Assembly: GCA_016806145.1 (NCBI GenBank)
Contig: CP063167.1
Location: 372,001-436,000, forward strand
Direction: 5' to 3'
Origin: Variovorax paradoxus
GTDB lineage: Bacteria > Pseudomonadota > Gammaproteobacteria > Burkholderiales > Burkholderiaceae_C
Length of the DNA stretch: 64,000 bases
The position numbers and the translations under genes are program-made. Shown here one piece after another: positions 5,002 to 48,508 of this stretch. Within the stretch, counting starts at the first letter, position 1. Each line of letters starts with the position of its first letter. Under the pieces are notes generated by a model. The model searched no databases. It was not told where the DNA came from and saw nothing but the letters and a program-made list of their open reading frames with translations.

Positions 5002-5010
5002 GAGCGCGCG

Positions 5011-8388: not shown

Positions 8389-8402
8389 GGCTTCTTCCCC
8401 GC

Positions 8403-9092: not shown

Positions 9093-9126
9093 GTGGAATC
9101 GATCCTTGTGATGTGTGGTGGTGCGG

Positions 9127-32618: not shown

Positions 32619-33037
32619 CCTCCGCAAGCCTCCCACTCGACCATGCCTACCGCGCCTACCTCGACTGCCTCAACGCGCGGGACTTCGGCGCGCTGGGCCG
32701 CCATGTGCACGAGGAGGTCAGCCACAACGGCGTCCACCTCGGCGTCGCGGGCTACCGCCGCATGCTCGAGAAGGACTTCGACGACATTCCCGACCTGCGC
32801 TTCGAGCTGGAGCTGCTGGTCGTGGACGCGCCGCGCGTCGCAAGCCGGCTGCGCTTCGACTGCACGCCGAAGGGACGCTTCCTGGACCTCGACGTCGACG
32901 GCCTGAAGGTGTCGTTCGCCGAGAACGTCTTCTACGAGTTCGTCGACGGACGGATCGCGCGCGTGTGGTCGGTCATCGACAAGGCGGCCATCGAACACCA
33001 GCTCGTGGCGTCGCGCGGCGCGCGGCAGCCCTACTGA
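32615..33037 (+). CDS. SnoaL-like (NTF2-fold) small protein
   Basis: A 140-residue NTF2/SnoaL-fold protein of the ester-cyclase-like type (HVHEEVSHNGVHLGVAGYRRMLEKDF, then VFYEFVDGRIARVWSVIDKAAIE). Such proteins range from cyclases and isomerases to non-enzymatic binding proteins; nothing in the sequence fixes a function. It starts in an ATGA overlap with the deacetylase gene. Its stop overlaps by 7 bp the end of the convergent LinD-like gene. Confidence 0.8.
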   Translation: MTSASLPLDHAYRAYLDCLNARDFGALGRHVHEEVSHNGVHLGVAGYRRMLEKDFDDIPDLRFELELLVVDAPRVASRLRFDCTPKGRFLDLDVDGLKVSFAENVFYEFVDGRIARVWSVIDKAAIEHQLVASRGARQPY

Positions 33038-34581
33038 GCGTCGAAGCTCAGCACGAATCGCCCCGCTTCCGCCAGGCCGCCGCATTCGAGCAGCAGGCCG
33101 CACTCGCTGGTTCGCAGCGCCGGAAAGGTGCTTCGGCTCACGGCACGGCCGCTGCCCGCGGCCACCTCGCGGCCATCGAGCGCGAGCGTCCAGCGCCCCT
33201 GTTCGGCCAGCCGGCCGATGACGACCTCGAGGCCGCCGCGCGCGCCGGCGCAGCGGCGCAGCGCGAACCGGAGCCGCCGCGACGCCGGATCGAAACGGGC
33301 CTGCAGCACGTCCACGGCATCGCCCACTTCCACCAGCGCGGGATGGCGGCGCTCCTCGGCGGCGATGGGTTCGTTGTAGAGCTTCCAGAGCCCGTCGGGC
33401 ACGTTGAGCGCCGCATAGCCCATCAGCACGTTGCCGCACATCGGCTCCATCAGCGTGCGATGGCCCTCGGCGTCCTGCGGCGCGTCGTTGCGCGGAAAGT
33501 AGAAGCCGCCATCGCGCCAGGTGGGCGCCATGTGGCGCTCGGCATGGCGCTCGAGGCCGGCCAGCGTCGCGGCATCGCCCATCTCCGAGGCCCAGGTCGC
33601 GGCCCAGCCGAAATCGGAATCGTCGTTGACCACCGCCTGGCCCATGATCAGCGGCCGCTCGGCCGAGCGCACCGACAGCGCGCCGTCGCGGCCCTCGACC
33701 AGCCAGTCGCGGATCTGCGCGGGATAGTGGCTGTGCACGAACTCGCGGTTCCACATGTTCATGAGCGTGCCGCACCAGGCGTCGGCCCAGGGCGAGGGGC
33801 CGGCGTTGTCGCGCACGACCTGCGTGTCCTGCGCCATCATCATGTTGTAGTGGCCGTTGGCGCCCAGCCGGCCGAACTGCGACCAGGCCTTCTGGTAGGC
33901 CTCGGTGACCTCGGCCGCCACCGAGCGGCCATTGACCAGGTCGTGCATACGAAAGCCGAGGATGGCCGGCTGGTTGCAGATCTGGAACACGCAGTTGGGC
34001 TCGCAGGCCACGCCCAGGTAGCCGCTCTCGACCATCTGCCAGTACACGGTCTCGTTGAGGCTGTTCTGGTCGTACTCGTAGCGCCGCTCCTTGCCGCCCC
34101 AGAAGAAGGACCAGTAGCTGAAGGTGAGCGCGCCGTGCGCGGCGTAGCGGTGATCGTCGAACAGGTAGTCGTAGAGCAGCGCCATCGACTGCACGTAGGC
34201 GCTGTACATGATGTTGTCGCGCGCGACCGGATCCCACTGCTCCTCGAGCCGGTCCGACAGGTGCAGGTTGAACACGCTGCCGCCGCGGCTGACGCGCGCC
34301 CAGTACATCCAGACCTCGGGCAGCAGCATCTTCTCGACCAGGCGCTCGAAGACCGGCTTGAACGCGCCCGGCGCGGCCGGCAGGCGATGGCGATGCGCCA
34401 GCGCCAGCGCATAGGCCATGTACGAGAGCTGGAAGCGGTAGCCGCCGAAGTCGTCCTGGCCCGCGCCGCGCCCCTGCATCAGCGACCAGTCGTTGGGCGG
34501 CTGGCGCGCGAGGTTGGCGAAGTGGCGCAGGTGCCCGGCCTGGCGGTCGGTGAGGGTGTCGTGGGCTTCGGCGGTGGTCAT
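33031..34581 (-). CDS. Linalool dehydratase/isomerase-like protein
   Basis: A 516-residue helical-barrel protein that I place in the linalool dehydratase/isomerase (LinD) family. The strongest match to remembered Castellaniella LinD is ACEPNCVFQICNQPA. Its Cys193 and Cys202 have the same 9-residue spacing as the two catalytic cysteines of LinD (within VCEPDNYFVQCNSVA). RDNIMYSAYVQSM aligns with the LinD segment ENIMYKGHLNLM, but the LinD histidine is Tyr129 here. DFGWAATWASEMGD matches a late helix. There is an extra C-terminal beta-rich part of about 110 residues and no visible signal peptide, whereas LinD is periplasmic. It overlaps the hydrolase gene (ATGA) and is last in the operon. Confidence 0.8.
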   Translation of the reverse strand: MTTAEAHDTLTDRQAGHLRHFANLARQPPNDWSLMQGRGAGQDDFGGYRFQLSYMAYALALAHRHRLPAAPGAFKPVFERLVEKMLLPEVWMYWARVSRGGSVFNLHLSDRLEEQWDPVARDNIMYSAYVQSMALLYDYLFDDHRYAAHGALTFSYWSFFWGGKERRYEYDQNSLNETVYWQMVESGYLGVACEPNCVFQICNQPAILGFRMHDLVNGRSVAAEVTEAYQKAWSQFGRLGANGHYNMMMAQDTQVVRDNAGPSPWADAWCGTLMNMWNREFVHSHYPAQIRDWLVEGRDGALSVRSAERPLIMGQAVVNDDSDFGWAATWASEMGDAATLAGLERHAERHMAPTWRDGGFYFPRNDAPQDAEGHRTLMEPMCGNVLMGYAALNVPDGLWKLYNEPIAAEERRHPALVEVGDAVDVLQARFDPASRRLRFALRRCAGARGGLEVVIGRLAEQGRWTLALDGREVAAGSGRAVSRSTFPALRTSECGLLLECGGLAEAGRFVLSFDAQ

Positions 34582-35609
34582 GCGGTCTTCTCCTCGGGTT
34601 CGATGCGCCGGGCGATCCAGGCCGCCAGGCAGGCGTTGACGCGTTCGGGCTGCTCCTGCTGCATCCAGTGGCCGCTGTCGACCACGGCCTCGCTGAGGTC
34701 GCCGCACATCGCGCGCATGGGCGCGGCCAGGCGCGAGTCGCGGGTCTCGCAGATCCAGTCGAAGGCGGCATGCAGGAACAGCACCGGCATCGCGAGCCGC
34801 CCCGCGGCGGGCGCGGTGGCCGCGAAGGCAGCGTTGCGCGCCATGTTCATGTACCAGGCGTCGGGACCGAAGAAGCCGTTGCGGCCCAGTCGCTCGGCAT
34901 ATTCGGCGAGCGCCTCCTCGGAGAGCACGGCGGCGTCGCGCGGCAGGTCGGGCGCGATGCCCGCGCCGCCGAACCAGCCGCCGTCGCGCCGCATCGTCGC
35001 GGTGCGGTAGGGCTTGCCGCGCCCCTCCGGATTGCCGCGTCGCATCAGCGCCTTGACGGTGCGCCGCGGATCGGCCTCGAGCGCGGCCCGCGCCGCCTCG
35101 AAGCTTTCCTGGTAGTGGCACTGGTAGTCCCACTGGCCCGCCGGATACAGGGCCTGCGGATACACGGCACGGTCGACCAGCGGCAGCAGGCTGTCGAGCG
35201 TGAAGCCGCTCGGCAGATAGGGAACGCACAGGCTCGCGACGCCCAGGCACTTGTCCGCATGATGGCTGGCCATGCTCCAGACCACCGGCGAGCCCCAGTC
35301 GTGGCCGACCCAGATCGCCCGGTCGCGCCCGAGGTGCGCGAGCAGCTCGACCATGTCCTGCACGATCTGTTCCATCGCGTAGTCCTCGCATGCCGGATGC
35401 ACGGTCGAGCCGCCGTAGCCGCGCATGTCGGGCGCCACCACGCGAAAACCGAGCGCCGCGAAGCACTCGATCTGGTGGCGCCAGCTCTCGGCCAGTTCGG
35501 GCCAGCCGTGCACGAACACGATCAGCGGCCCGTCGGCCAGGCCGGCCGCCAGGTAGCGGGTGGTGTGCCGCGGGGTCGCGCATTCGTGCGCAGTGATCTC
35601 GTGTCGCAT
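34578..35609 (-). CDS. Alpha/beta hydrolase, epoxide hydrolase-like
   Basis: A 343-residue alpha/beta hydrolase of the epoxide hydrolase/haloalkane dehalogenase branch. Seen: the oxyanion-hole motif VHGWPELAESW, the nucleophile Asp104 in VGHDWGSPVVW, a helical cap between about residues 130 and 250, and the catalytic His314 in DSGHWMQQEQPERV. The aspartate nucleophile with HGWPE favours an epoxide hydrolase. I chose ATG 35609 because an AGGGAG ribosome-binding site lies 6 bp upstream; GTG and ATG codons just before it overlap that site. It would open an epoxide to a diol, fitting terpenoid or alicyclic degradation with the LinD-like protein. Confidence 0.88.
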   Translation of the reverse strand: MRHEITAHECATPRHTTRYLAAGLADGPLIVFVHGWPELAESWRHQIECFAALGFRVVAPDMRGYGGSTVHPACEDYAMEQIVQDMVELLAHLGRDRAIWVGHDWGSPVVWSMASHHADKCLGVASLCVPYLPSGFTLDSLLPLVDRAVYPQALYPAGQWDYQCHYQESFEAARAALEADPRRTVKALMRRGNPEGRGKPYRTATMRRDGGWFGGAGIAPDLPRDAAVLSEEALAEYAERLGRNGFFGPDAWYMNMARNAAFAATAPAAGRLAMPVLFLHAAFDWICETRDSRLAAPMRAMCGDLSEAVVDSGHWMQQEQPERVNACLAAWIARRIEPEEKTA

Positions 35610-35615
35610 CTTCAT

Positions 35616-35621
35616 CTCCCT
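35616..35621 (-). promoter_or_regulatory. Ribosome-binding site deciding the hydrolase start
   Basis: AGGGAG lies 6 bp before the ATG at 35609 and overlaps the final base of the upstream livF-type gene. It argues against the in-frame GTG (35624) and ATG (35615), which would sit on or beside the site itself. Confidence 0.7.
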
Positions 35622-36334
35622 CACATGCCGAGGTAGGCGGCCTGCACCGCGGGGTCGGCGAGCAGCGCGCGGCCCGGGCCTTCGAGCGTGATGCGGCCGG
35701 TCTCGATCACGTAGCCGCGGTCGGCGATGGCCAGCGCGGCGCGCGCGTTCTGCTCCACCAGCAGGATGGTCTTGCCTTCGTCGCGCAGCCGGCCGATGAC
35801 GCCGAAGATCTCCTTCACGATCAGCGGCGCCAGCCCCATCGAGGGCTCGTCGAGCAGCAGTAGGCGTGGCCGGCCCATCAGCGCGCGCGCCATCGCCAGC
35901 ATCTGCTGCTGCCCGCCCGACAGCGTGCCGGCCGCCAGGCGCCGGAACTCGCCGAGGATGGGGAACAGCGCGTACATCGCCGCCAGGTCGCTCTCGACCT
36001 GCGCGGGATCGTTGCGCACGAAGGCGCCGAGCCGCAGGTTGTCCTCCACCGTCATCGGGCCGAACACCTGCCGGCCCTCGGGCACCTGGCAGATGCCGCG
36101 CTTGACGCGCACGGCGCAGGGCGCGCGCACGATCGGCTCGCCATCGAAGGCGATGGCGCCGGACGAGACCGGCTGCACGCCCGAGATGGCGCGCAGCAGC
36201 GTGGTCTTGCCCGCGCCGTTGGCACCCACCAGCGCCACCAGCTCGCCTTCGCGCACCGCGAGGTCGACGGCGTGCAGCGCCTGGATGCGGCCGTAGTGGC
36301 TGGTCAGGCCCCGCACCTCGAGCAGCGTCTTCAT
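35621..36334 (-). CDS. livF: Branched-chain amino acid-type ABC transporter ATPase LivF
   Basis: A 237-residue ATPase of the LivF type. Seen: Walker A GANGAGKTTLLRAISG, the LivF-typical CQVPEGRQVFGPMTVEDNL, signature LSGGQQQMLAMARAL and Walker B LLLLDEPSMGLAP. It starts at the ATG with a perfect AGGAGG 8 bp upstream; an earlier in-frame ATG (36370) overlaps the livG-type stop and would add 12 residues. With LivG, LivM, LivH and LivK it forms a complete importer. In this operon the substrate is more likely a hydrophobic or aromatic acid than an amino acid. Confidence 0.94.
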   Translation of the reverse strand: MKTLLEVRGLTSHYGRIQALHAVDLAVREGELVALVGANGAGKTTLLRAISGVQPVSSGAIAFDGEPIVRAPCAVRVKRGICQVPEGRQVFGPMTVEDNLRLGAFVRNDPAQVESDLAAMYALFPILGEFRRLAAGTLSGGQQQMLAMARALMGRPRLLLLDEPSMGLAPLIVKEIFGVIGRLRDEGKTILLVEQNARAALAIADRGYVIETGRITLEGPGRALLADPAVQAAYLGM

Positions 36335-36342
36335 CGAGCGGT

Positions 36343-36348
36343 CCTCCT
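36343..36348 (-). promoter_or_regulatory. Perfect AGGAGG ribosome-binding site of livF
   Basis: AGGAGG is placed 8 bp before the ATG at 36334. It supports that start over the ATG at 36370, which overlaps the upstream stop codon. Confidence 0.7.
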
Positions 36349-36366
36349 GCATCGCGGGTACGGCGT

Positions 36367-37148
<782 letters not shown>

Positions 37149-37152
<4 letters not shown>

Positions 37153-38087
37153 GAAGGCCTCCTGGCGAACAAGCCCTTCAGGGTCGGCACGATGCCCGCG
37201 CGCATGAAGATCATGGCGGCCGTGAGGATGATCCCGAGCAGCAAGGTCTCGAAGGACTCGAAGGCATGCAGCACCTGCGGCAGCAAGGTGATGATGGCCG
37301 CGCCGACGATCGATCCGAAGACCGAGGCGGTGCCGCCCAGCACCACCATCATCACGAACTCGACCGAGCGCGTGAGGCCCGCGGCCGCGGGCGTGAGGAA
37401 GCCGACGTAATGCGCCATCAGGCTGCCCATTACGCTGGCCATCACGGCCGACAGCACGAACACGCGCGTCTTGAAGCGGCCGGCCTCGATGCCCACGGTG
37501 CGCGCCGCGACTTCCGAGCCGCGGATGGCCTGCAGCGCGCGGCCGGCCGGCGAGTCGACCAGGTTCGACGCGGCCCAGGTCGCGAGCAGCAGCAGCGCCG
37601 CGGTGAACGCATACCAGGCTGGCTCGCCCGACAGCGACCACCCGAACACCGACAGCGCCGGCACCGTCATGCCGTCCGAGCCGCCGGTCCAGCGGGTCTC
37701 GTTGTTGAAGACGATGGTCGCGATCAACCCGAGCGACAGCGTGGCCATCGCCAGGTGATGACCGGCCAGCCGCAGGATCGGCCGCGCGACCACGAAGGCC
37801 AGCACGCCCGTCGCCGCCGCGCCGGCGGCCAGCGCGGCCAGCGGCGGCCAGCCGAAATGCGTGGTCAGGATCGCCGAGGCGTAGGCACCGAAGCCGAAGA
37901 AGGCCGCGTGCCCCAGGCTGATCTGCCCCGCGTAGCCGAACAGCAGGTTGAGGCCGATCACGACCACCGCGTTGATGGCGATGCGGATCGCGATGTCGTA
38001 GGCGAAGCCGCTCGGCCCGAGCACCGGGAACAGCAGCAGCAAGGCCGCGAGCAGCGCAAGGCCGGCATGGCGGGTGGGAAATCTCAT
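37149..38087 (-). CDS. livM: Branched-chain amino acid-type ABC transporter permease LivM
   Basis: A 312-residue inner-membrane permease with about eight or nine spans. The LivM hallmark GYAGQISLGHAAFFGFGAYA is near residue 50, and the coupling-loop region is ALQAIRGSEVAARTVGIEAGRFK near residue 185. It overlaps livH at its start and livG at its end by ATGA. It forms the translocation pore with LivH. Confidence 0.94.
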
Positions 38088-38959
38088 ACGCGCTCCGTCA
38101 CCCGCACGCCGAACAGGCCGCGTGGCAAGAACATCAACACCAGCAGGATCAGCACGAAGGCCACCGCATCCTTGTAGGCGGCGGAGACGTAGCCTGCGGC
38201 CAGCGCCTCCATCACGCCCAGCACCAGGCCGCCGACGATCGCGCCCGGCCCGCTGCCGATGCCGCCGAGCGCGGCGGCCGCGAAGCCCTTGAGGCCGAGC
38301 ACCACACCCGCGTCGTAGCTCGTGAAGGTGATCGGCGCGGTGATGACGCCGCCGATGGCGCCCAGCGCGCCCGACATCGCGAACGACACCAGCATCACGC
38401 GGTCGGTGCCGATGCCCACCAGCGCGGCGGCCAGCGGGTTGTGCGAGGTCGCGAGCATGCCCTTGCCCGAGAGCGTGCGGCCGAAGTACCAGGCCAGCAG
38501 CACCACCACCGCCAAGGTCACGCCCAGCACCCACAGGCTCTGCGGCACCAGCGTGGCGCCCGCGACGCGCAGCGGCGCATCGCCCGAGAACGCGGGCAGC
38601 GCATGGTTGCCCTTGCCGAGCACGACCTGCACCACGCCGCGGATCACGAGCGCGACGCCCAGCGTGATGATCAGCAGCGTGATCAGCGGCGCGCCGCGCG
38701 CGGGCCGCACCGCGAGCCGCTCCATGCAGGCGCCGGTGAGCACCGACGCGACGATGGCCACGGCGATCGCCAGCGGCAGGCCGCTGCCGGCCTCGACCAT
38801 GGCCGCCGCCGTCATGGCGCCGAGCATGATGAACTCGCCCTGCGCGAAGTTCACGATGTGGCTCGCGTTGTAGATCAGCGCATAGCCGAGCGCCGCGAGC
38901 GCGTACATCGCGCCGACCGTCAGGCCGGAGAAGAGGAACTGCAGCAGTTCAGAGAACAT
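38084..38959 (-). CDS. livH: Branched-chain amino acid-type ABC transporter permease LivH
   Basis: A 291-residue permease. I preferred the ATG at 38959 (MFSELLQFLFSGLTVGAMYA), which aligns with the usual LivH N-terminus; an ATG 12 bp upstream adds four residues. Family motifs seen are YALAALGYALIYNASHIVNFAQGE near the N-terminus, and AALGGIGSGPGAIVGGLVLG with a glycine-rich coupling segment near residue 225. It follows the receptor gene by 30 bp and overlaps livM. Confidence 0.93.
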   Translation of the reverse strand: MFSELLQFLFSGLTVGAMYALAALGYALIYNASHIVNFAQGEFIMLGAMTAAAMVEAGSGLPLAIAVAIVASVLTGACMERLAVRPARGAPLITLLIITLGVALVIRGVVQVVLGKGNHALPAFSGDAPLRVAGATLVPQSLWVLGVTLAVVVLLAWYFGRTLSGKGMLATSHNPLAAALVGIGTDRVMLVSFAMSGALGAIGGVITAPITFTSYDAGVVLGLKGFAAAALGGIGSGPGAIVGGLVLGVMEALAAGYVSAAYKDAVAFVLILLVLMFLPRGLFGVRVTERV

Positions 38960-38989
38960 GGTGGCCCCCATGCCGGCGCGGTAGCGTGC

Positions 38990-40141
38990 TCACTTGACGA
39001 GCTCGAAGCGGCCGTTGCGCACCTCGATGATGCGCAGCGAGTCGGTCGTCAGGCCGTTGTGGTTGGCCGGCGTCATGGTGAAGGTGCCGTTCAGTCCCAC
39101 GAGCCCCCTGGTCGATTCGATCGCGTCGCGCAGCTTCGCCTTGTCGGTGCCGTTGGCGCGCTTGATGCCGTCGACCGCGATGGCCAGCGCATCCGCCACG
39201 TTGCCGCCGAAGGGCGAGGCGTCGACCTTGTAGGCCTCCTTGAAGCTGCGGTAGTAGTCGAGCGAAGGCGCCTTCTGCGGATCGCCGTCCTTCAGCGCGT
39301 CGGGCACCACGAAGCCCGTGGTCGGCATGCGCACGCCTTCGGTGGGCGCGCCGCCGAGCTTGATGAACTCCTGGTTGACCGCGGCATGCGGCATGTAGAC
39401 CGGCAGCTTGAAGCCCATCTGCGCGTAGTTCTTGATCGCGACGGCCGGGCTGGTGCCCGCGCCGCAGAAGACCAGCATCGCCTGCAGGTCCTGCAGGTTG
39501 CGCAGGCGGGTGAACTGCGGCGTGATGTCGGTGTCCTTCGGGCCGTAGCTCTCCTCGCCCACGACCGTGATGCCGAAGCGGGCCGCCGCCGCCGTGACCT
39601 CCTTGCGGCCCGACTGGCCGAAGCCGCTGGTCTCCGACAGCAGCGCGATGCGCTTGATGCCGCGCTCCTGCATGTCCTGCAGGATGCGCTCGGCCACCAT
39701 GCGGTCGGAGTGCGGCGTCTTGAAGACCCACTTCTTCACCGGATCGACCAGCGCGAGCCCGCCGCCCGTGGAGACGAAGGGCACGCCGGCGCGCTCGGCA
39801 TAGGGCACGATCGCCATCGCGGTCGGCGTGACGGTGCCGCCCAGCAGCACGTCGACCTTGTCGGTGTCGACCAAGCGCTTGGCGAAGGTATTGGCGTTGT
39901 TCGGGTCGGACTGGTCGTCGTAGATCGTGAGCGCGATCTTGCGGCCCAGCACGCCGCCCTGCTCGTTCAGCCGCTTGACGTGCAGCTCCAGCGTCTTCTG
40001 CTGCGGGTCGCCGATGAACCCCACCGGGCCCGTCACCGACAGGATGGCGCCGATGCGGATCGGCTCGCCCTGGGCCTGCGCGGCGGCGCCGACGGCGAGC
40101 CCCGCGAAGGCGAGAAGGGCATGGCGAATGAAAGCTCTCAT
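38990..40141 (-). CDS. Periplasmic leucine-binding-protein-like ABC receptor (LivK type)
   Basis: A 383-residue type I periplasmic binding protein. A short signal peptide (residues 1-23, MRAFIRHALLAFAGLAVGAA then AQA) precedes the typical first strand PIRIGAILSVTGPVGFIGD. Other family elements are IALTIYDDQSDPNNANTFAKR and LLGGTVTPTAMAIVPYAE. The region that binds the amino group in true leucine-binding proteins is not obviously kept, so another ligand is likely. Homologues of this type import aromatic or alicyclic acids in related bacteria. It precedes livH by 30 bp and has a GGAG ribosome-binding site. Confidence 0.92.
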   Translation of the reverse strand: MRAFIRHALLAFAGLAVGAAAQAQGEPIRIGAILSVTGPVGFIGDPQQKTLELHVKRLNEQGGVLGRKIALTIYDDQSDPNNANTFAKRLVDTDKVDVLLGGTVTPTAMAIVPYAERAGVPFVSTGGGLALVDPVKKWVFKTPHSDRMVAERILQDMQERGIKRIALLSETSGFGQSGRKEVTAAAARFGITVVGEESYGPKDTDITPQFTRLRNLQDLQAMLVFCGAGTSPAVAIKNYAQMGFKLPVYMPHAAVNQEFIKLGGAPTEGVRMPTTGFVVPDALKDGDPQKAPSLDYYRSFKEAYKVDASPFGGNVADALAIAVDGIKRANGTDKAKLRDAIESTRGLVGLNGTFTMTPANHNGLTTDSLRIIEVRNGRFELVK

Positions 40142-40164
40142 GGTTTTCTCCGTCTAGTTGTGGG

Positions 40165-41118
40165 TCAGGCGCTCATGCGCATCTGCAGCTTGATCTGGCC
40201 GGGTGGCAGGCTGCCTTCGAGCAGCCGCGTGAACATCTGCTCGGCCTGCGCGAAGGGCACGGCATGCACCCAGCGCGTGTCGAGGTCGGGGAGCATCGCG
40301 ACGGCCTCGCGGAACTCGTAGGGCGTGTAGCCGAACGATCCCTTCACGGTGCGCTCGCCGCCGATCAGCGGCCCGGCCGGGAACGCCAGGTCGGCGCTGT
40401 GCAGGCCGACCAGCACCGCCACGCCGCCCGGGCGCACCTTGAGCGCGGCGTCGCGCCGCGTGGCGACCGCGCCCACCGAATCGAAGACCACGTCGAAGCT
40501 GCCCTCGATGGCCTCGGCCGTGCGGTCGGCACCGCCCGCGTCGGCGAAGGCGCGGCGCTCGGCCGACAGGTCGGTCACCGTCACGTCCTTCACGCCGAAG
40601 CGCTTGAGCACGAACAGCAGCGACAGCCCGATCGAGCCCGCGCCGAGGATCGCGACCGGCCCGCTGCCGATCGCGGCGGCGCCGAGTCGGTAGGCATGCA
40701 GCGCGGTGGCGATCGGGTCGGCCATCGCGGCCTGCGTGATCGTCGCGTGGCCCGCCGGCACGAGATTGCCCTCGGGCACCGCGACCGCCTCGGCGAAACC
40801 GCCGTCGCGGTGCACGCCGATCACCTGGCGGCGCTCGCACAGGTGGGCGCGGCCTTCGCCGCAGGCGCGGCAGCAGCCGCAGGCCAGCAGCGGATTGACG
40901 ATGACGCGCTCGCCGGTGTCCTCGCGCAGGCCGACGAACTCGTGGCCGAGCGTCATCGGCGCCTCGGCCTTGGGCCGCTCGTCGCGCACCACGCACATGT
41001 CGGTGCCGCAGACGCCCGCCTGCAGCACGCGGACCATGACTTCCCCGCTTCCGGGACGCGGCGCGGGAACCTCCAGTTGGCGGACCGTCGCGTCGCCCAC
41101 GTAGACCAGTGCTTTCAT
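40165..41118 (-). CDS. Zinc-dependent medium-chain alcohol dehydrogenase
   Basis: A 317-residue zinc-type MDR alcohol dehydrogenase. Seen: the catalytic zinc ligands in GVCGTDM (Cys37) and MTLGHEF (His59 with the following Glu), a structural zinc loop with four cysteines (LLACGCCRACGEGRAHLC) and the NAD-binding ILGAGSIGLSLLFV. It is somewhat shorter than the 340-370 residues usual for the family. It would oxidise an alcohol to an aldehyde or ketone with NAD(P)+. The operon position, between an SDR and a Liv importer, suggests it acts on the imported alicyclic or terpenoid compound. Confidence 0.92.
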   Translation of the reverse strand: MKALVYVGDATVRQLEVPAPRPGSGEVMVRVLQAGVCGTDMCVVRDERPKAEAPMTLGHEFVGLREDTGERVIVNPLLACGCCRACGEGRAHLCERRQVIGVHRDGGFAEAVAVPEGNLVPAGHATITQAAMADPIATALHAYRLGAAAIGSGPVAILGAGSIGLSLLFVLKRFGVKDVTVTDLSAERRAFADAGGADRTAEAIEGSFDVVFDSVGAVATRRDAALKVRPGGVAVLVGLHSADLAFPAGPLIGGERTVKGSFGYTPYEFREAVAMLPDLDTRWVHAVPFAQAEQMFTRLLEGSLPPGQIKLQMRMSA

Positions 41119-41138
41119 GCGTTTCTCCAGGGGCGGGC

Positions 41139-41942
41139 TCAGGCGGCCGGCGCCGACGGCTTGCGCGCGGCGAGGCTCGGGTAGCGCTGCATCGAGGCAC
41201 CGCCGTCCACGTAGAGGGTCTGGCCCGTCACGTAGGCCGCGTCGTCGCTCGCGAGGTAGGCGACCGCCGCCGCGATGTCCTCGGGCCGGGCCGGGCGCTG
41301 CAGCGGGATGTTGTCCAAGAAGGCCTCGCGCGCGACCGGGTCGGCAAGCAGGCGCGCCACCATCGGCGTGTCGGTGAGGCCCGGCCCCACCGACGCGACG
41401 CGGATGCCCTGCGCCGCAAGCTCGAGCGCCGCGACGCGCCCGAGCATCTCCATGCCGGCCTTGGCCGCGCAATAGGCCGCGAGCCCCTCGCCGGGCTGCC
41501 GCGCATTGGTCGAGGCGATGTTGACGATCACCGCCGGGCCGCCCTGCGCGAGCATCTGCCGCGCCTGCGCCTGCAGCGAGACGAAGACGCCCGTGAGGCA
41601 CACGTCGAGCACGCGCTGCCAGGTCTCGAGCGTGGTGTCGACCAGGCGCGCGCTGGCACCCACGCCGGCCGCGTTGACGGCGATGTCGAGCCGCTCGAAG
41701 GCGGCGGCCGTGGCCTCGACGGCGCGATGCATGTCGGCGGCGTTCGCCACGTCCGCGGCGATCGCCAGCGCGCCGCCGCCGATCGCATCGGCGGTGGCAC
41801 GCGCGGCGGCGGCATCGCGGTCGAGGCAGGCGAGGCGCGCGCCCTCCTCGGCCAGGCGCACGCAGATGGCGCGCCCGATGCCGGAGCCCGCGCCGGTGAC
41901 CAGGGCCACGCGGCCCTCGAGTCTCTTGCCTGGCAAGGTCAT
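41139..41942 (-). CDS. Short-chain dehydrogenase/reductase (SDR)
   Basis: A 267-residue classical SDR. Seen: the cofactor motif VTGAGSGIGRAI (residues about 15-26), NAAGVGA, the catalytic Ser in NIASTNARQPGE and the Tyr/Lys pair in AAYCAAKAGMEML, ending with GQTLYVDGGASMQ. The chosen start (MTLPGKRLEGRVALVTG) comes one base after the stop of the thiamine-diphosphate enzyme gene. The acidic residue after the second strand (CLDRD) suggests NAD rather than NADP. The substrate is unknown. Confidence 0.93.
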   Translation of the reverse strand: MTLPGKRLEGRVALVTGAGSGIGRAICVRLAEEGARLACLDRDAAAARATADAIGGGALAIAADVANAADMHRAVEATAAAFERLDIAVNAAGVGASARLVDTTLETWQRVLDVCLTGVFVSLQAQARQMLAQGGPAVIVNIASTNARQPGEGLAAYCAAKAGMEMLGRVAALELAAQGIRVASVGPGLTDTPMVARLLADPVAREAFLDNIPLQRPARPEDIAAAVAYLASDDAAYVTGQTLYVDGGASMQRYPSLAARKPSAPAA

Positions 41943-41943
41943 C

Positions 41944-43671
41944 TCAGGCCTCCAGGTCGTCGGCATAGGGAACGAAGTTGCGCTCGGCATCGCGCTCGGC
42001 CATGCGGCCGACGAAGCGCTGCGTGATCGGGTGCATCACGGCGGGGTCGGTCATCACGTTGACGCAGGCCGGCCGGTTCGATGCCAGCGCGCGCGCGAGC
42101 GCCGCGTCGAGCTGCGCCACGTCCTCGACGAACTCCGCGTGGCAGCCGAAGCCGGCCGCGGCCTGCTCGTAGCGCGTGCGGCCCAGGTCGCTGACCATGC
42201 GCCGGCCCTCGCCGTACATCAGGTCCTGCCCGTGCGCCGACATGCCCCACATCTGGTCGTTGTTGACCACCACGACTACCGGCAGCCCGTGCCGCACCAG
42301 GGTGTCGAACTCGGCGAAGTTGAAGCCGATCGAGCCGTCGCCGGTGAACAGCACGACGCGCCGCCCGGGGTTGGCCACCTGCGCGCCGACCGCCAGCGGC
42401 AGGCCCTCGCCCATGCAGCCCACGTAGCCGTGGCCGAGCCAGCGGCCGGGCGCGTCGCTGTGCGCCGTCATGTCGATCCACGAATGCGATTCGCCGCCGT
42501 CGAGGCAGACCACCGCATCGCGCGGCAGTGCCGCCGCCACCGCCACCGCGAGGCGATAGGGATGCACGGGGCCGCTCTCGGCCGCCGCCACCTGCGCGAA
42601 GTTCTGCTTCGACGCGGCACCGACGGCGCACAGGCGATGCGCCCATGCGCTGGTGTCGGGCAGCGGCTCGGACTCGGTGGCGCTCAGCAGCGCACGCAGG
42701 GTTTCGCCGCAGTCGGCCGTCACCGAGAGGTCGGGTTCGCGGATGCGCCCCATCTCGCCGGGCTCGATGTCGACCTGGACGATCTTCGCCTCGGCCGGCA
42801 GGAAGGACTTGCGGCGGCCGCCGGTATAGATGCCGAAGCGCGCGCCCAGCACCAGCAGCAGGTCGGGCACCAGGCCCTGGCCGCGCGCCGGTGCCAGCGT
42901 GGCATAGCCGCGGCCCCACAGCGCATGGTCGGTGGGCAGCACGCCGCGCGACTTGGCATTGGTGAGCACGGGAATACCGGAGCGCTCGGCGAAGGCGCGC
43001 AGCTCGGCGGCGCAGCCCGCATAGAGCGTGCCGCCACCGGCGAGGATCACCGGGCGCTGCGCGCCGCGCAGCAGCGCGACGATGCGCGCCACCGCGTCGG
43101 CCGTGGGCGCGGGGCGCGTCGGCGCGCCGGCCGGGTCGAGGTGCCGAACCTCCTCGGGCGCGATCAGGCCGAACATCACATCGATCGGGATCTCGACGTA
43201 GACCGGTCCGGGGCGGCCCGTGGTCGCCTTGCGGATCGCCTGGCCCACCAGATCGGCCAGGCGGTTGATGTGTGGCACCTGCACGGCCCACTTGGTGACC
43301 GAGCGCATCACCGCCATCTGGTCGACGCCGCCGTTGACCGGCAGCGCATCGAGGTCCTGCAGCGGCGCCGCGCCGCCGATGACCAGCATCGGCACGCAGT
43401 CGGCGAGCGCATTGGCCACCGGCGAGACCACGTTGGTGATGCCGCCGCCGGCCGTCACCAGCGCCACGCCGAGGCGGCCGGTGCTGCGCGCATAGGCCGA
43501 GGCGGCAAAGCCCGCCGCCTGCTCGTGGCGCGTGTCGACCACGCGCAGGCCGGCGTCGCGCGCGGCCTGGTAGGCCGAATCGAGGTGGCCGCCATGAAGG
43601 GTGAATGCGGTGTCGGCGCCAAAGCGCCGGAGGACGTCGATCAGGATCTGACCGCCATTGAGTTTCGCCAC
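41944..43671 (-). CDS. Thiamine-diphosphate-dependent enzyme (acetolactate synthase / 2-hydroxyacyl-CoA lyase superfamily)
   Basis: A 575-residue ThDP enzyme with the three classic domains. The catalytic Glu50 is in DTRHEQAAGFAA. The middle domain contains RPVILAGGGTLYAG. The ThDP-binding motif starts at TGDGSIGFNFAEFD and ends at VVNNDQMWG. The family includes acetolactate synthase, benzoylformate decarboxylase, oxalyl-CoA decarboxylase, 2-hydroxyacyl-CoA lyase and cyclohexane-1,2-dione hydrolase; I cannot choose by eye. It is the first gene of the ten-gene catabolic operon, so it probably makes or breaks a carbon-carbon bond next to a carbonyl in that pathway. Confidence 0.88.
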   Translation of the reverse strand: MAKLNGGQILIDVLRRFGADTAFTLHGGHLDSAYQAARDAGLRVVDTRHEQAAGFAASAYARSTGRLGVALVTAGGGITNVVSPVANALADCVPMLVIGGAAPLQDLDALPVNGGVDQMAVMRSVTKWAVQVPHINRLADLVGQAIRKATTGRPGPVYVEIPIDVMFGLIAPEEVRHLDPAGAPTRPAPTADAVARIVALLRGAQRPVILAGGGTLYAGCAAELRAFAERSGIPVLTNAKSRGVLPTDHALWGRGYATLAPARGQGLVPDLLLVLGARFGIYTGGRRKSFLPAEAKIVQVDIEPGEMGRIREPDLSVTADCGETLRALLSATESEPLPDTSAWAHRLCAVGAASKQNFAQVAAAESGPVHPYRLAVAVAAALPRDAVVCLDGGESHSWIDMTAHSDAPGRWLGHGYVGCMGEGLPLAVGAQVANPGRRVVLFTGDGSIGFNFAEFDTLVRHGLPVVVVVNNDQMWGMSAHGQDLMYGEGRRMVSDLGRTRYEQAAAGFGCHAEFVEDVAQLDAALARALASNRPACVNVMTDPAVMHPITQRFVGRMAERDAERNFVPYADDLEA

Positions 43672-43754
43672 GGATGCTCTCCAGAGTGCGCTTCGAGCGC
43701 GTTACCGAAAGGAGACGCGTGCGTTTCGAAAGCCGCGTCTCGTTGGTGGCGGAC

Positions 43755-43778
43755 TTTAATTAAACACGTTCATTTAAA
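43755..43778. promoter_or_regulatory. AT-rich imperfect palindrome containing GTTCATTTA, candidate operator
   Basis: A 24-bp quasi-palindrome, with most symmetric positions matching, overlaps the last codons of the TetR gene and lies 84 bp upstream of the ThDP enzyme gene. It contains GTTCATTTA, the same 9-mer found in the palindrome at 45031-45044. It is well placed to control the ten-gene operon. Confidence 0.5.
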
Positions 43779-44434
43779 GATCGGTGTTTTCCCTTGGCCG
43801 CCGTTTGGGCCTCGCGAATCCACTGCCCGATCAATGCGTTCACCACGGCCTCGACCATCGCTTCGGTCGCCGACCAGGGCATGCTCGGCGTGACACGCGG
43901 GAACGCGATCACGCCGTGCGTGGCCGCGATCAGCGCGTCCATGGCCAGCGTGGTGTCGACGGGCCGGCATGGCAGCGAGGCCAGAAAGCCGTCGACGACC
44001 TGCCGGTAGAGCGCGAGCGAACGCACGACGCTGGCCGAGCGCCCGAAGGGCAGCCCCTCGGGCGTGTGCAGCGCCACGCGCTCGCGCGAGCCGGCGAACA
44101 GCACGTCGAAGTGGTCGGGGTGCGCGAGCCAGTAGTGCGCCGCGGCGAGGAACACCGCGCGCACGCGTCGCGCCGGGTCGGCCGTGGCCCGCGCGCAGGC
44201 CTCCATGGCGTCGGTGGCCGCGTTCATGTCGAACTCGCGGATCGCCACCAGCAGCGCGCGCTGGTCGGGAAAGTACTGGTAGATCGCGCCCGGCGAGTAG
44301 CCGGCCCGGGCCGCGATGTGGCGCATCGACATCGCACCCGCGCCCTGCTCGACCAGGATGCGGCGGCCCGCGTCGATGAAGGCCTGGCGCACCCGCTGCC
44401 TGTCGACCGCGGAGTACGCCTTGCGCCCGGTCAC
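43760..44434 (-). CDS. TetR family transcriptional regulator (paralogue of 45126)
   Basis: A 224-residue TetR regulator. The start is the GTG at 44434, which overlaps the stop of the SCO1-like gene (GTGA). The helix-turn-helix reads SMRHIAARAGYSPGAIYQYF (about residues 37-56), almost identical to the second TetR protein at 45126. The ligand domains also align, with EGLPFGRSASVVRSLALY against the partner's AGVPFGRSPVVQDSLKLY. It lies directly upstream of the ten-gene catabolic operon and is likely its repressor. Co-translation with a SCO1-like protein is unusual. Confidence 0.92.
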   Translation of the reverse strand: MTGRKAYSAVDRQRVRQAFIDAGRRILVEQGAGAMSMRHIAARAGYSPGAIYQYFPDQRALLVAIREFDMNAATDAMEACARATADPARRVRAVFLAAAHYWLAHPDHFDVLFAGSRERVALHTPEGLPFGRSASVVRSLALYRQVVDGFLASLPCRPVDTTLAMDALIAATHGVIAFPRVTPSMPWSATEAMVEAVVNALIGQWIREAQTAAKGKHRSLNERV

Positions 44435-45009
44435 ACGATGTGCCGGCGCAGGCGTTCGACCACGGCGTCGATGTCGAGCGCGTCGGGCAGGTGGGCCTGG
44501 TAGCGGCCGCCGGGCGCCATCAGGTAGGCGAAGGCCGTGTGCGGCACCACGTAGCCGCCCGGTGCGCCGGCGTCCGGCACCGGTTCCGCGAACACGCGGA
44601 AGGCCTTCTTGGCGGCCTCGACCTGCGCGGGCGTCCCGGTGAGCCCGGTGAAGCCGCCGGGCTGGCGCGCGACATAGGCCTGCATGGTCTTCGGGTCGTC
44701 GCGCCGCGGATCGACCGTGACGTAGAGCGGCTGGATGCGATCGGCCAGCGGCCCGAGGCGCTCGAGCGCGGCGCCCAGCTTGCCGAGCTCGCGCGGACAG
44801 ACCACGGCGCAATGCGTGAAGCCGAAGAAGACCAGCAGATGGCGATCGCCGAAGCTGCGCTCGGTGACGGCGCGGCCATGGTGGTCGACCAGCTCGAAGC
44901 GGCCATCGATGGGCGCCGGGCGCGCCGTCGGCGCCTGGACGGGTTCGGCAGCCGTTGCGCCGCCGCAGCAGCAGGCGCGCACCGGCGCCGTGGAGGTCTC
45001 GTTCGTCAT
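44431..45009 (-). CDS. SCO1/SenC-like protein with N-terminal cysteine cluster
   Basis: A 192-residue thioredoxin-fold protein of the SCO1/SenC/PrrC family. The copper/redox motif is complete: Cys67 and Cys71 in GFTHCAVVCP and His157 in VVPHTAF. Family members deliver copper to cytochrome oxidase or act as thiol redox proteins outside the cytoplasm. Odd here: no signal peptide or membrane anchor is visible; the N-terminus instead has three consecutive cysteines (VRACCCGG, residues 13-15). A cytoplasmic redox or metal-sensing role in partnership with the overlapping TetR gene is possible. It is divergent from the second TetR gene. Confidence 0.88.
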   Translation of the reverse strand: MTNETSTAPVRACCCGGATAAEPVQAPTARPAPIDGRFELVDHHGRAVTERSFGDRHLLVFFGFTHCAVVCPRELGKLGAALERLGPLADRIQPLYVTVDPRRDDPKTMQAYVARQPGGFTGLTGTPAQVEAAKKAFRVFAEPVPDAGAPGGYVVPHTAFAYLMAPGGRYQAHLPDALDIDAVVERLRRHIV

Positions 45010-45030
45010 GGGCGGATATTAATTGCACAT

Positions 45031-45044
45031 GTTCATTTATGAAC
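45031..45044. promoter_or_regulatory. Perfect palindrome GTTCATTTATGAAC, candidate TetR operator
   Basis: A 14-bp perfect palindrome (6-bp arms plus central TT) lies in the 116-bp region between the SCO1-like gene and the divergent TetR gene. It shares GTTCATTTA with the site at 43755-43778. Both neighbouring TetR proteins have nearly identical recognition helices and could bind it. Confidence 0.6.
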
Positions 45045-45125
45045 CGGGTTTTCCCGTGCCCGGGCCTATACTTTTGCTCCACCGCCCCGCGCGGAAGAAC
45101 CCCAGCCCCAGAGCCAAGCCACCCC

Positions 45126-45791
45126 ATGTCATTCCGCCCGTCCAAACCCGAAGTCCTCAGCCGCGCGCGAACTCCCGAGGACAAGGCCAAGGTCCGGGAG
45201 GCCTTCATCGCCGCGGGTCGCAAGCTGTTCGCCGACGAGGAGCCGTCGACCGTCTCGCTGCGGCGCATCGCCGCGGCCGCCGGCTATGCGCCGGGCTCCA
45301 TCTATCAGTACTTCCACGACCAGCAGGACCTGTTCTTCCACATCCGCGCGCACGACATGCAGGCCTCGACCGAGCAGCTGCGCGAGCTGATCGCGCGCGT
45401 GCGCAGTCCGCAGCGGCGCGTGCTCAAGCTCTTCATCGGCACGGCCGACTACTGGCTCGAGCACATGGAGGAATTCCTGGTGATCTTTCCCGCGCCCAGC
45501 GTGGACCGGGCGCCGGCGGTCGGCAGCGCCGGCGTGCCCTTCGGCCGGTCGCCCGTGGTGCAGGACAGCCTCAAGCTCTACTACGACACGGTGGACGAGT
45601 TCTTCCGCACCCTGGCGCGCCCGCCCATGAACGCGCGCCTGGCCACCGACATCCTGATCGCGGCGGTGCACGGCACGATCGTGTTTCCATGCATGACGCG
45701 GACCATGGACTGGTCCGACACGCGCCTGATGGTCAAGCACCTGGTCACGAGCATGGTGGACGACTGGGGCAAGAGCGGCCCTGCCGCCTGA
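45126..45791 (+). CDS. TetR family transcriptional regulator (paralogue of 43760)
   Basis: A 221-residue TetR protein with helix-turn-helix SLRRIAAAAGYAPGSIYQYF near residues 44-63. It is clearly homologous over its whole length to the TetR protein at 43760-44434. It is divergent from the SCO1-like and TetR gene pair and is followed, after a 157-bp gap holding a short tandem repeat, by a CoA ligase and Bug receptor. It may regulate both sides through the 14-bp palindrome at 45031. Confidence 0.92.
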   Translation: MSFRPSKPEVLSRARTPEDKAKVREAFIAAGRKLFADEEPSTVSLRRIAAAAGYAPGSIYQYFHDQQDLFFHIRAHDMQASTEQLRELIARVRSPQRRVLKLFIGTADYWLEHMEEFLVIFPAPSVDRAPAVGSAGVPFGRSPVVQDSLKLYYDTVDEFFRTLARPPMNARLATDILIAAVHGTIVFPCMTRTMDWSDTRLMVKHLVTSMVDDWGKSGPAA

Positions 45792-45948: not shown

Positions 45949-47514
45949 TTGCCATCGAACGAACCCGTCCTTGACGGCCTGGCGCGATTCGCCGCCGAGG
46001 CCCCCGCGCGACCGGCGGCCATCCTGGCCGAGACCGGCGAAACGCTGGACTACCGGCGCCTGCACGAACGCTCGGCGCGGCTCGCGTGCTTCCTCGCGGC
46101 CCGCCTCGAGGCCGGCGAAGTGGTGGCGATCCTGCTGGGCAACCGGCTCGAATACTTCGAGCTCACCTTCGCGGCACGCCGCGCCGGCCTCTACTACGTG
46201 CCGATCAGCACGCACCTCACGCCCGGCGAGATCGACTACATCCTGCGGGACTCGGGCGCGCGCATCCTGCTGACCGAGACGGCGCTGCGGCCCTGGGCCG
46301 AGCGCTCGGCCTGGCCGGCGCCGCTCGAGGAGGTGCTCTGCATCGACGCCGAAGACCCGGTCGAAGGCGCCGCGAGCTACCGCGCGCTCGTCGAGGCCGA
46401 CGGCCCGGTACCGCCGCTGCCGGACCGGCCCCTGGGCCTGGACTTCGCCTACTCCTCGGGCACCACCGGCCGGCCCAAGGGCATCAAGCACAAGCTCGAG
46501 GACCAGCAGCTGCGCAAGGCGCTCGCGGGCGACTGGCTCTCGTTCTTCGCCTTCGATCCCGCGAGCGTCTATCTCTCGCCCGCGCCGCTCTATCACGCGG
46601 CGCCGCTGCGCTTCAGCGTGCGTTGCGTGGCCTTCGGCGGCACGGTGGTCCTGATGCGCCGCTTCGATGCCGAAGGCGCGCTCGCGGCGATCGCGCGCTG
46701 GCGCGTCACCCATTCGCAATGGGTGCCGACGATGTTCATCCGCCTGCTCGCGCTGCCGGCCGAACGACGCGCGGCCCACGATCTCTCGAGCCACCGGCTG
46801 GCGCTGCATGCGGCGGCGCCCTGCCCTCTCGAGGTCAAGCGCCGCATGATCGACTGGTGGGGCCCGATCGTCTGGGAGTACTACACCGGCTCGGAGCGCG
46901 CCGGCGCCACCGCGATCTCGGCACCCGAATGGCTCGCGCACCCGGGCTCGGTGGGCCGCGCGAAGCAGGGCGTGCTGCACATCGTCGGCGACGACGGCGG
47001 TGAATGCGCGCCGATGGTCGACGGCCTGGTCTGCTTCGAGGGCGGCCCGAGCTTCGCGTACCACAACGATCCGGTGAAGACCGCCGAGACCCACACGCCG
47101 CAGGGCTGGGGCACCTTCGGCGACATCGGGCACGTGGATGCGGAGGGCTACCTCTACCTCACGGACCGGCGCGCCAACATGATCATCTCGGGCGGCGTGA
47201 ACATCTATCCGCAGGAGGCGGAGAACCTGCTGCAGGACCATCCGCTGGTGCACGAGGTGGCCGTCATCGGCGTGCCGCATGCGGAGTTCGGCGAGGAGGT
47301 GAAGGCCGTGGTCCAGCTCAAGGATCCCGCGCTCGCCGGTGCCTCGACCGCGCAGCAGCTCATCGACCACTGCCGCGCCCATCTCTCGGCCATCAAGTGC
47401 CCGCGCAGCGTGGACTTCGCGACCGACCTGCCGCGCACCGAGACCGGCAAGCTGCTCAAGCGCGTCGTGCGCGACCGCTACCGCGCGCTCGCCGCGCCCG
47501 CTTCCCAACCGTGA
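45949..47514 (+). CDS. AMP-dependent acyl-CoA synthetase/ligase
   Basis: A 521-residue ANL-family ligase. The start is the TTG at 45949, preceded by GGAG at 6 bp spacing, giving MPSNEPVLDGLARF. Seen: YSSGTTGRPKGIKHK near residue 170, the adenylate motif WEYYTGSERAGAT near residue 308, the hinge DRRANMIISGGVNIYPQEAE near residue 405 and the catalytic lysine in RTETGKLLKRVV near residue 500. It activates a carboxylic acid to its CoA ester. The next gene, 13 bp downstream, is a Bug receptor, so uptake and activation of the same acid is likely. Confidence 0.94.
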   Translation: MPSNEPVLDGLARFAAEAPARPAAILAETGETLDYRRLHERSARLACFLAARLEAGEVVAILLGNRLEYFELTFAARRAGLYYVPISTHLTPGEIDYILRDSGARILLTETALRPWAERSAWPAPLEEVLCIDAEDPVEGAASYRALVEADGPVPPLPDRPLGLDFAYSSGTTGRPKGIKHKLEDQQLRKALAGDWLSFFAFDPASVYLSPAPLYHAAPLRFSVRCVAFGGTVVLMRRFDAEGALAAIARWRVTHSQWVPTMFIRLLALPAERRAAHDLSSHRLALHAAAPCPLEVKRRMIDWWGPIVWEYYTGSERAGATAISAPEWLAHPGSVGRAKQGVLHIVGDDGGECAPMVDGLVCFEGGPSFAYHNDPVKTAETHTPQGWGTFGDIGHVDAEGYLYLTDRRANMIISGGVNIYPQEAENLLQDHPLVHEVAVIGVPHAEFGEEVKAVVQLKDPALAGASTAQQLIDHCRAHLSAIKCPRSVDFATDLPRTETGKLLKRVVRDRYRALAAPASQP

Positions 47515-47527
47515 CGGAGACCCGACC

Positions 47528-48508
47528 ATGACGATCGACATCGGACGCAGGCACTGGACGATGGCCCTGCTGGCATCGCTGGCCGGCCTGCCCGAGCTGG
47601 CCAGTGCGCAGCAGGACACCCGGCCGCTGACCTTGCTCGTGCCCTATGCCGCCGGCGGCGCGGCCGACCCGGTGGTGCGCCCGCTCGCGCAGCGCCTGCA
47701 GGAGGTGCTCGCGCGCACCGTGCTGGTCGACAACAAGGCCGGCGCCAACGGGCTCATCGGCACGCAATACCTGCTGCGCCAGCCGCCCGACGGCCTGACG
47801 GTGCTGTTCCACATCACCAGCCTGATCCAGAACATCGCGCTGTCGCGCGGCAAGCCGCCCTACGACTTCGCGAAGGACATCGAGCCGCTGGTGCTGCTGG
47901 GCCGGCAGGCGGTGGTGCTGGTGGTGCCCGCGTCGAGCCCCTACCAGAACCTGGCCGACCTCGCGCGCGCGGCCAAGGCCAACCCGGGCAACTTCTCCTT
48001 CGGCTCCTATGGCGCGGGCTCGACCTCGCACATCTACGGCGAGCAGCTGCGCGCGGCCTGGAACATCGAGATGCCGCACGTGGCCTTCCGCGGCACCAGC
48101 CCGCTGCTGCAGGACATGCTGGGCGGACGGGTGCCGATGGCCTTCGTCTCGGCCGCCACCGCGATCGAGCGCCAGGGCGACAAGGGACTGCGCTCGATCG
48201 CGGTGGCGCACAGCAAGCGGCTGACCGCGCTGCCGCAGGTGCCCACACTGCACGAGCTCGGCTACGCGGGCTTCGACTACACCGGCTGGTGGGGGCTGTT
48301 CCTGCGCGCGGGCACGCCGGCGCCGGTGGCCGAGCGCCTGCGCAACGCGATCCGCGCCATCCTGCAGGAGCCCGACATGGTCGGCCGGCTGCAGCTGGCC
48401 GGCCTGGAGCCCAGCAGCGAGACGCCCGAGCAGATCACGGCCGCGATGCAGAACGAGTACCGCCACTGGGAGGCGCTGAGCCGGCGCTTCAACATCACGG
48501 CCGATTGA
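47528..48508 (+). CDS. Bug/TctC-type periplasmic solute-binding receptor
   Basis: A 326-residue Bug receptor with a twin-arginine-like export signal (GRRHWTMALLASLAGLPELASA). The family loops are PLTLLVPYAAGGAADPVVRP and VDNKAGANGLIGTQYL. The C-terminal part LTALPQVPTLHELGYAGFDY is typical. It follows the CoA ligase by 13 bp. No TctA/TctB genes accompany it, so it depends on membrane partners elsewhere or serves as a sensor. The ligand is probably the carboxylate activated by the upstream ligase. Confidence 0.92.
   Translation: MTIDIGRRHWTMALLASLAGLPELASAQQDTRPLTLLVPYAAGGAADPVVRPLAQRLQEVLARTVLVDNKAGANGLIGTQYLLRQPPDGLTVLFHITSLIQNIALSRGKPPYDFAKDIEPLVLLGRQAVVLVVPASSPYQNLADLARAAKANPGNFSFGSYGAGSTSHIYGEQLRAAWNIEMPHVAFRGTSPLLQDMLGGRVPMAFVSAATAIERQGDKGLRSIAVAHSKRLTALPQVPTLHELGYAGFDYTGWWGLFLRAGTPAPVAERLRNAIRAILQEPDMVGRLQLAGLEPSSETPEQITAAMQNEYRHWEALSRRFNITAD

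Follow-up and report, generated by a model that had tools for sequence, protein, structure and literature searches.

The 64,000-nucleotide stretch of Variovorax paradoxus DNA analyzed here (contig CP063167.1 of assembly GCA_016806145.1, positions 372,001 to 436,000; hereafter the window) encodes a protein of the linalool dehydratase/isomerase family (Ldi, of which LinD is the known enzyme) and, on the same strand, a SCO1/SenC protein (SCO). Pairing of the two genes is shown here, by comparison of genome sequences, to be conserved in Pseudomonadota and Actinomycetota, and the paired Ldi proteins carry an additional cysteine within the motif CEPNC. A first-pass annotation of the window had joined Ldi to a Liv-type importer in a ten-gene operon for a terpenoid or alicyclic compound. 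The SCO-Ldi partnership is a stronger finding than that pathway and defines a LinD-family variant with a testable mechanism.

The SCO-Ldi pair in other genomes

Six peptide patterns taken from the window Ldi, a choice that favors close relatives, were used to scan genome records and gave 26 Ldi loci; the weak matches L030 and L031 are not among the loci considered here. SCO is present at 23 of these loci and, in all 23, is on the Ldi strand. It directly adjoins Ldi in 20 loci (projected gaps of -114 to 94 nt), among which L025 has both genes broken and L018 nearly duplicates L017. In Xenophilus azovorans (L002) and Variovorax sp. YR216 (L004), the catabolic block described below sits between SCO and Ldi. 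The three loci where no SCO was found have Ldi at a contig edge (L006) or as a fragment (L026 and L027). Further pairs occur on the Allorhizobium plasmid pAtS4e and in G1029 and G1287; of 11 plasmid Ldi matches, five were examined and six others, from Agrobacterium plasmids, were left out. SCO-linked loci thus number 27 with the window, and Fisher tests, which used 26 and treated relatives as independent, were given no weight. No third conserved neighbor was found besides SCO, either by gene clustering or by eye in 19 loci (among the neighbors listed), and the other neighbors of Ldi are not constant between genomes. In a Pseudonocardia metagenome-assembled genome (L021, 8217-11497), SCO, a Liv-type periplasmic binding protein (PF13458), and Ldi lie in a row, so that here too an import-type gene separates the pair.

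A search for PF02630 in 19 genomes, including those of 10 of the 17 actinobacterial loci, returned one SCO match per genome in all 10 actinobacterial genomes, and by coordinates this match is the Ldi-linked copy in each; the Pseudomonadota genomes have 2 to 5 matches each. Trees of SCO and Ldi from 23 pairs (L018, L044, L002, and L025 being left out as near copies or too short matches) correlate (Mantel r 0.646, p 0.0001), and the groups common to both trees are L017 with L020 and L021, L010 with L015, L005 with L024, and the window with L003 and L008.

For comparison, 19 Ldi proteins with an open-frame match but outside the CEPNC subfamily were taken from family, class, and phylum genomes, an actinobacterial order, and plasmids. 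None of the 19 has CEPNC or its second cysteine (C197 of the window Ldi), and no SCO was found near any of them in the fetched flanks, some of which lie near contig ends. L051, L052, and L079, which match Ldi in Pfam but gave no open-frame profile match, were left out of this set and are also without SCO there. Ldi of any type is rare, being found in 6 of 369 class genomes and 3 of 398 phylum genomes (the genome of the window counted in both), and in 11 of 397 genomes of an actinobacterial order, a sample centered on a genome known to have one.

Other Ldi types have neighbors of their own. On a Rhodococcus opacus plasmid (L041, 5173-8442), the gene for a 734-amino-acid Ldi-family protein precedes one for Caa3_CtaG, an assembly factor of oxidases that we take to be copper-related, a possible second and independent link between Ldi and oxidase assembly factors. 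CtaG as a general partner of Ldi was rejected, since it occurs in one of 26 loci searched for it (L002 to L027 being outside that search). In Aureimonas AU20 (L043, 4637-7786), an Ldi-family gene lies between annotated uppS (polyprenyl diphosphate synthase) and diacylglycerol kinase genes, a hint that this other type of Ldi may have to do with polyprenyl lipids. An alcohol dehydrogenase (ADH) beside Ldi in Ensifer, presumably of the GeoA type, has 5tnx and the benzyl alcohol dehydrogenase 1f8f as its best PDB matches. In Rhodococcus koreensis and on a Rhodococcus erythropolis plasmid (L040), the surroundings of Ldi include genes for aldehyde dehydrogenase and acyl-CoA ligase. Such neighbors would fit an Ldi that makes an allylic or benzylic primary alcohol.

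Cysteines of Ldi and features of SCO

The window Ldi scores above the Pfam cut-off for PF18566, and its predicted structure has the LinD-type barrel on which the first-pass annotation had staked its reading; no NCBIfam family was found for it. Its C193 and C202 align to the LinD active-site cysteines C171 and C180 and are kept across a distant Ldi set, while the third cysteine, C197, occupies the position of LinD N175, giving three conserved cysteines as compared with two active-site cysteines in LinD. CEPNC is present in 119 of 120 listed homologs. The position of LinD His129, which we take to be a catalytic residue, is Tyr in 117 of the 120 (motif DN[IV]MYSAY), an equivalence drawn from a weak local alignment of 7-8 bits with a shared NIMY. 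Because of this Tyr and the extra cysteine, linalool chemistry should not be assumed for Ldi. A search by term of PMC12455561 and PMC6600392 yielded no passage on LinD residue roles. We infer that the window Ldi is probably a cytoplasmic, cysteine-dependent alcohol dehydratase/isomerase.

The window SCO matches PF02630 with 139.8 bits (cut-off 22.8) and has both the CxxxCP motif and the His ligand. In an alignment of the linked SCO copies, Cys-x3-Cys is intact in all 26 that cover it, and the His likewise in all 26 that span its position; their motif reads CxxVCPR. Loss of the His in some copies had been suggested by too narrow a motif, in which a preceding Pro was required, and was ruled out by the alignment. 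In a crude test for the membrane anchor or export signal of oxidase-assembly SCO proteins, mean N-terminal hydrophobicity was 0.56 for the window SCO and at most 1.11 for 10 linked copies, with LivK (1.66) as yardstick. Since none of these 11 copies has a strongly hydrophobic N-terminus by this test, SCO is probably cytoplasmic, like Ldi.

Layout of the window and the catabolic block

Ten minus-strand genes were confirmed at 33031-43671 (window open reading frame coordinates), each family being backed by Pfam. The gaps of at most 32 bp previously described for them hold, the largest being 23 nt. The thiamine diphosphate (ThDP) enzyme and short-chain dehydrogenase (SDR) genes overlap by 47 nt from the first SDR ATG, or lie 1 nt apart with a start at the internal ATG, residue 17; SDR, ADH, LivK, and LivH are separated by 20, 23, and 18 nt, and the remaining five junctions down to Ldi are 4-nt overlaps. 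The same-strand run extends upstream of ThDP to a TetR gene, at a spacing of 88 bp, and then to SCO. The features are as follows.

33031-34581, minus strand: Ldi, 516 amino acids, LinD-fold barrel with an extra C-terminal beta-rich part; C193, C197, and C202 (CEPNCVFQIC) and Y129
34578-35624, minus strand: alpha/beta-hydrolase of the soluble epoxide hydrolase type, 348 amino acids; best PDB match epoxide hydrolase 2; D109, Y167, Y258, D289, and H319
35621-36370, minus strand: LivF-type ATP-binding protein; PF00005; top NCBIfam model LivF, under cut-off
36367-37152, minus strand: LivG-type ATP-binding protein; PF00005 and PF12399; top NCBIfam model LivG, under cut-off
37149-38087, minus strand: LivM-type permease; PF02653, 5.5e-37
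38084-38971, minus strand: LivH-type permease; PF02653, 3.4e-37
38990-40141, minus strand: LivK-type periplasmic binding protein with hydrophobic N-terminus; PF13458, 4e-60; top PDB chains 3sg0 and 4dqd
40165-41118, minus strand: zinc ADH of the medium-chain dehydrogenase/reductase type, 317 amino acids; PF08240 and PF00107; zinc-ligand motifs present; best PDB match 8wwd
41139-41990, minus strand: SDR, with a possible internal start at residue 17; PF13561, 3.2e-60; TGAGSGIG and YCAAK
41944-43671, minus strand: ThDP-dependent enzyme, benzaldehyde-lyase-like; benzaldehyde lyase, 5.2e-108; E50 and H29 present
43709-43744, no strand: inverted repeat with 11-nt arms, 91% complementary, between TetR 1 and ThDP; candidate TetR operator, chance possible
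43760-44434, minus strand: TetR regulator 1; PF00440; overlaps SCO by 4 nt
44431-45009, minus strand: SCO1/SenC protein, 192 amino acids; PF02630, 6.8e-41; C67-x3-C71 and H157; best PDB match Blr1131
45129-45791, plus strand: TetR regulator 2; PF00440; divergent from SCO

Scans of the window for RNA genes found no tRNA and no match to Rfam at the gathering score. TetR 1 is related to TetR 2 (39-45% identity to TetR 2 orthologs), and TetR 2 orthologs adjoin SCO in four of eight Comamonadaceae loci (L003, L004, L005, and L008; 60-79% identity). The interval between TetR 2 and SCO (45010-45128) contains an AT-rich near-palindrome around GTTCATTTATGAAC, a candidate TetR 2 operator, and L005 and L008 also have arms with TTGAAC or GTTCA. 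Directly after TetR 2, at 45949-48508, an AMP-dependent ligase and a TctC-type binding protein are encoded, perhaps within the same regulon. A SnoaL-like protein at 32636-33037 is convergent with Ldi and has no counterpart in the other loci at E 1e-20.

The gene order recurs elsewhere, as the first-pass annotation had proposed to check. All ten genes are present in X. azovorans with 87-98% identity, together with a TetR 1 ortholog (89%) and, at the edge of the fetched stretch, the end of a SCO gene. Variovorax sp. YR216 has nine of the ten, in the order divergent TetR 2, SCO, ThDP, SDR, ADH, LivKHMGF, and Ldi, with no TetR 1 in between and LivF not separated from Ldi by an epoxide hydrolase; about 0.7 kb past Ldi, the opposite strand encodes a distant alpha/beta-hydrolase (30% identity). 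Because it is kept in both, the arrangement is not a chance juxtaposition. In the protein database, there are five instances where a ThDP relative and an Ldi relative may share a contig, one of them being Variovorax sp. PBS-H4, by name the source of both; this is suggestive of adjacency rather than proof. With the block at only two of the 26 Ldi loci from genome records, the idea that Ldi belongs integrally to a Liv pathway in general was rejected. The earlier claim that the operon joins Ldi to a Liv block stands for the window, L002, and L004, but the regular partner of Ldi is SCO, which had gone unseen.

Proposed mechanism, alternatives, and comparison with known systems

LDI is sensitive to oxygen, depends on a mild reducing agent, and contains no cofactor (PMC6013536). 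Linalool isomerase (Lis) is inactive until reduced under anoxic conditions, and its UV-Vis spectrum gives no sign of a cofactor (PMC4791888). PMC4109377 describes ldi as part of a terpene island that also carries geoA and geoB. In the reading we favor, the locus would be a 12-gene catabolic unit (SCO-TetR-ThDP lyase-SDR-ADH-LivKHMGF-epoxide hydrolase-Ldi) around a two-gene core of SCO and Ldi. The dedicated SCO, with its thioredoxin fold, CxxxC, and His, would keep or restore the CEPNC cysteines in a reduced or copper-loaded state in aerobic cells, doing in vivo what dithiothreitol or dithionite does in vitro for linalool isomerase; reduction of the active-site cysteines by a private SCO would account for the working of a LinD-family enzyme in aerobes. 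The Liv importer would take up a hydrophobic or aromatic acid-type compound, the hydrolase, where present, would open an epoxide, SDR and ADH would oxidize the alcohol or diol to an alpha-hydroxyketone, and the ThDP enzyme would cleave this product. Taken jointly, unit and mechanism are judged about evenly poised between right and wrong. The broader proposal, that a widespread clade of LinD-fold proteins in aerobes depends on a dedicated cytoplasmic SCO transferring copper to, or redox-charging, a Cys-x3-Cys absent from LinD, is held more tentatively, at somewhat less than an even chance.

Import, oxidation to an alpha-hydroxyketone, and ThDP-dependent cleavage form a coherent putative route. 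The ThDP enzyme has benzaldehyde lyase as its best PDB match over nearly its whole length and, by hand count on the alignment, keeps Glu50 and His29 and has Asn for Q113 and Met for A480, four residues whose roles in benzaldehyde lyase we assume. With Q113 and A480 changed, the enzyme is termed benzaldehyde-lyase-like rather than a benzaldehyde lyase; no report of benzaldehyde-lyase gene clusters was found in a search of the open-licence literature that combined four terms. The hydrolase was rightly called epoxide-hydrolase-like, as all five catalytic residues of soluble epoxide hydrolases are present, which we take, along with the human numbering, to be an Asp nucleophile, two lid Tyr, an Asp, and a His. 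SDR and ADH keep their family motifs, PRK07231 being the only SDR subfamily above cut-off among the 25 NCBIfam matches listed, and all five Liv proteins fall below the cut-offs of the NCBIfam models for amino acid importers. The diol, oxidation, and C-C cleavage sequence of the first-pass annotation gains from the likeness to an acyloin-cleaving lyase and loses from the absence of the hydrolase in the YR216 operon; the epoxide step looks optional.

Several observations weigh against the favored reading. First, no SCO lies in the 17 kb fetched for L040, the Rhodococcus erythropolis plasmid with a CEPNC-type Ldi; this Ldi combines the third cysteine with His at position 129, as in LinD. Second, SCO keeps a copper-ligand His that a pure thiol reductase would not need. 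Third, the AlphaFold2 model of Ldi is weak at residues 191-200 (mean predicted local distance difference test score 59), the site of C193 and C197. Fourth, the actinobacterial set includes draft genomes, from which further SCO copies could be missing. Fifth, the two trees place L004 and L007 differently and have several weak branches, their correlation is inflated by shared ancestry, and the CEPNC proteins look like one lineage, such that the association of cysteine and SCO does not represent many independent events. Finally, the block is found in few genomes, a ThDP match at E 1e-150 occurring in the own genome alone among 399 family genomes (the own included, with at most three candidates scored per genome), and a functional link between Ldi and the block accordingly depends on few loci. 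As a separate observation on L040, aldehyde dehydrogenase, alcohol dehydrogenase, AMP-binding protein, and Ldi genes lie in a row at 2974-9548.

Aromatic substrates are at least as likely as a terpenoid or alicyclic one. A lignin-type route, in which Liv imports an aromatic acid or keto compound, the ThDP enzyme cleaves an aromatic acyloin, and Ldi adds, moves, or removes a hydroxyl, is possible though somewhat doubtful: the top ThDP matches are benzaldehyde lyases, but similarity does not fix substrates, and the exchanges at Q113 and A480 tell against it. The closest structures to LivK, 3sg0 and 4dqd, are presumably Rhodopseudomonas aromatic-acid binders, whose ligands were not confirmed in a literature search.

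The main rival to a redox partnership is copper transfer, favored by the intact His. Here SCO would be a copper chaperone for Ldi, and the Cys-x3-Cys of CEPNC would be loaded like the CuA site of cytochrome oxidase. SCO proteins are best known for copper delivery to cytochrome oxidase, the CxxxC and His are intact in every linked copy covering them, Ldi has a Cys-x3-Cys of its own, and the distant R. opacus Ldi is followed by CtaG. This alternative is nevertheless considered unlikely, since C193 and C202 correspond to LinD active-site cysteines, CtaG is confined to one of the loci searched for it, and copper-loaded cytoplasmic enzymes are, to our knowledge, rare; the absence of a cofactor from LinD (PMC6013536) and of any sign of one from the UV-Vis spectrum of Lis (PMC4791888) point the same way.

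The pathway of the first-pass annotation, in which a terpenoid or alicyclic epoxide is imported, hydrolyzed, oxidized, and cleaved while Ldi acts on a terpene alcohol, has every enzyme present and compatible chemistry, and the Ensifer and R. koreensis neighbors noted above would suit it. It is rendered improbable by the otherwise alike YR216 operon without the hydrolase, by 24 of 26 loci without the block, and by the weakly aligned Tyr at the His129 position. A lack of any direct action between SCO and Ldi, with SCO countering reactive by-products as a redox or stress protein and the linkage due to co-regulation alone, is quite improbable. Redox functions apart from oxidase assembly are known for some SCO proteins, and the other neighbors of Ldi vary, but a specific partnership is favored by the tree correlation, the constant strand, and the failure to find a second SCO in any of the 10 actinobacterial genomes searched.

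An Ldi subfamily in aerobes with a built-in SCO partner would add a role for SCO proteins beyond copper delivery to cytochrome oxidase. If the broader proposal above is true, Ldi would be, as far as we know, the first SCO client of its kind, and its active site would be of a type not described before among LinD relatives. The pairing points to a way in which enzymes usually sensitive to air could be kept active in aerobic cells, and it turns annotations of LinD-like genes of unknown role into a testable two-protein system. In the open-licence literature, where absence is weak evidence, no joint report of linalool dehydratase and SCO1 was found, and SenC with linalool returned only unrelated nutrition papers. 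Joint mention of linalool dehydratase and benzaldehyde lyase was confined to one review, and that of linalool dehydratase and Variovorax to one survey of myrcene.

Compared with known systems, the window Ldi shares the barrel of LinD (Ldi) of Castellaniella defragrans at 18% identity and differs from it in the third cysteine at N175, the Tyr at the His129 position (by weak alignment), about 100 more residues at the C-terminus, the lack of a hydrophobic N-terminus, and the SCO partner. Lis of Thauera linaloolentis, likened to the window Ldi by description rather than by sequence, is membrane-anchored and belongs to an anaerobic pathway; it is named as a LinD relative (PMC6013536) and needs a reductant (PMC4791888). 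The window SCO has the Pfam family, CxxxC, and His in common with SCO1/SenC proteins such as Bradyrhizobium Blr1131, and differs in its motif (CxxVCPR versus CPDVCPT), in having no strongly hydrophobic N-terminus, and in its linkage to Ldi. We take Blr1131 to be ScoI. Unlike benzaldehyde lyase, the ThDP gene is embedded in a transporter operon. The hydrolase shares its five catalytic residues with soluble epoxide hydrolase (the EPHX2 C-terminal domain), whereas it is operon-borne and absent from the operon of YR216.

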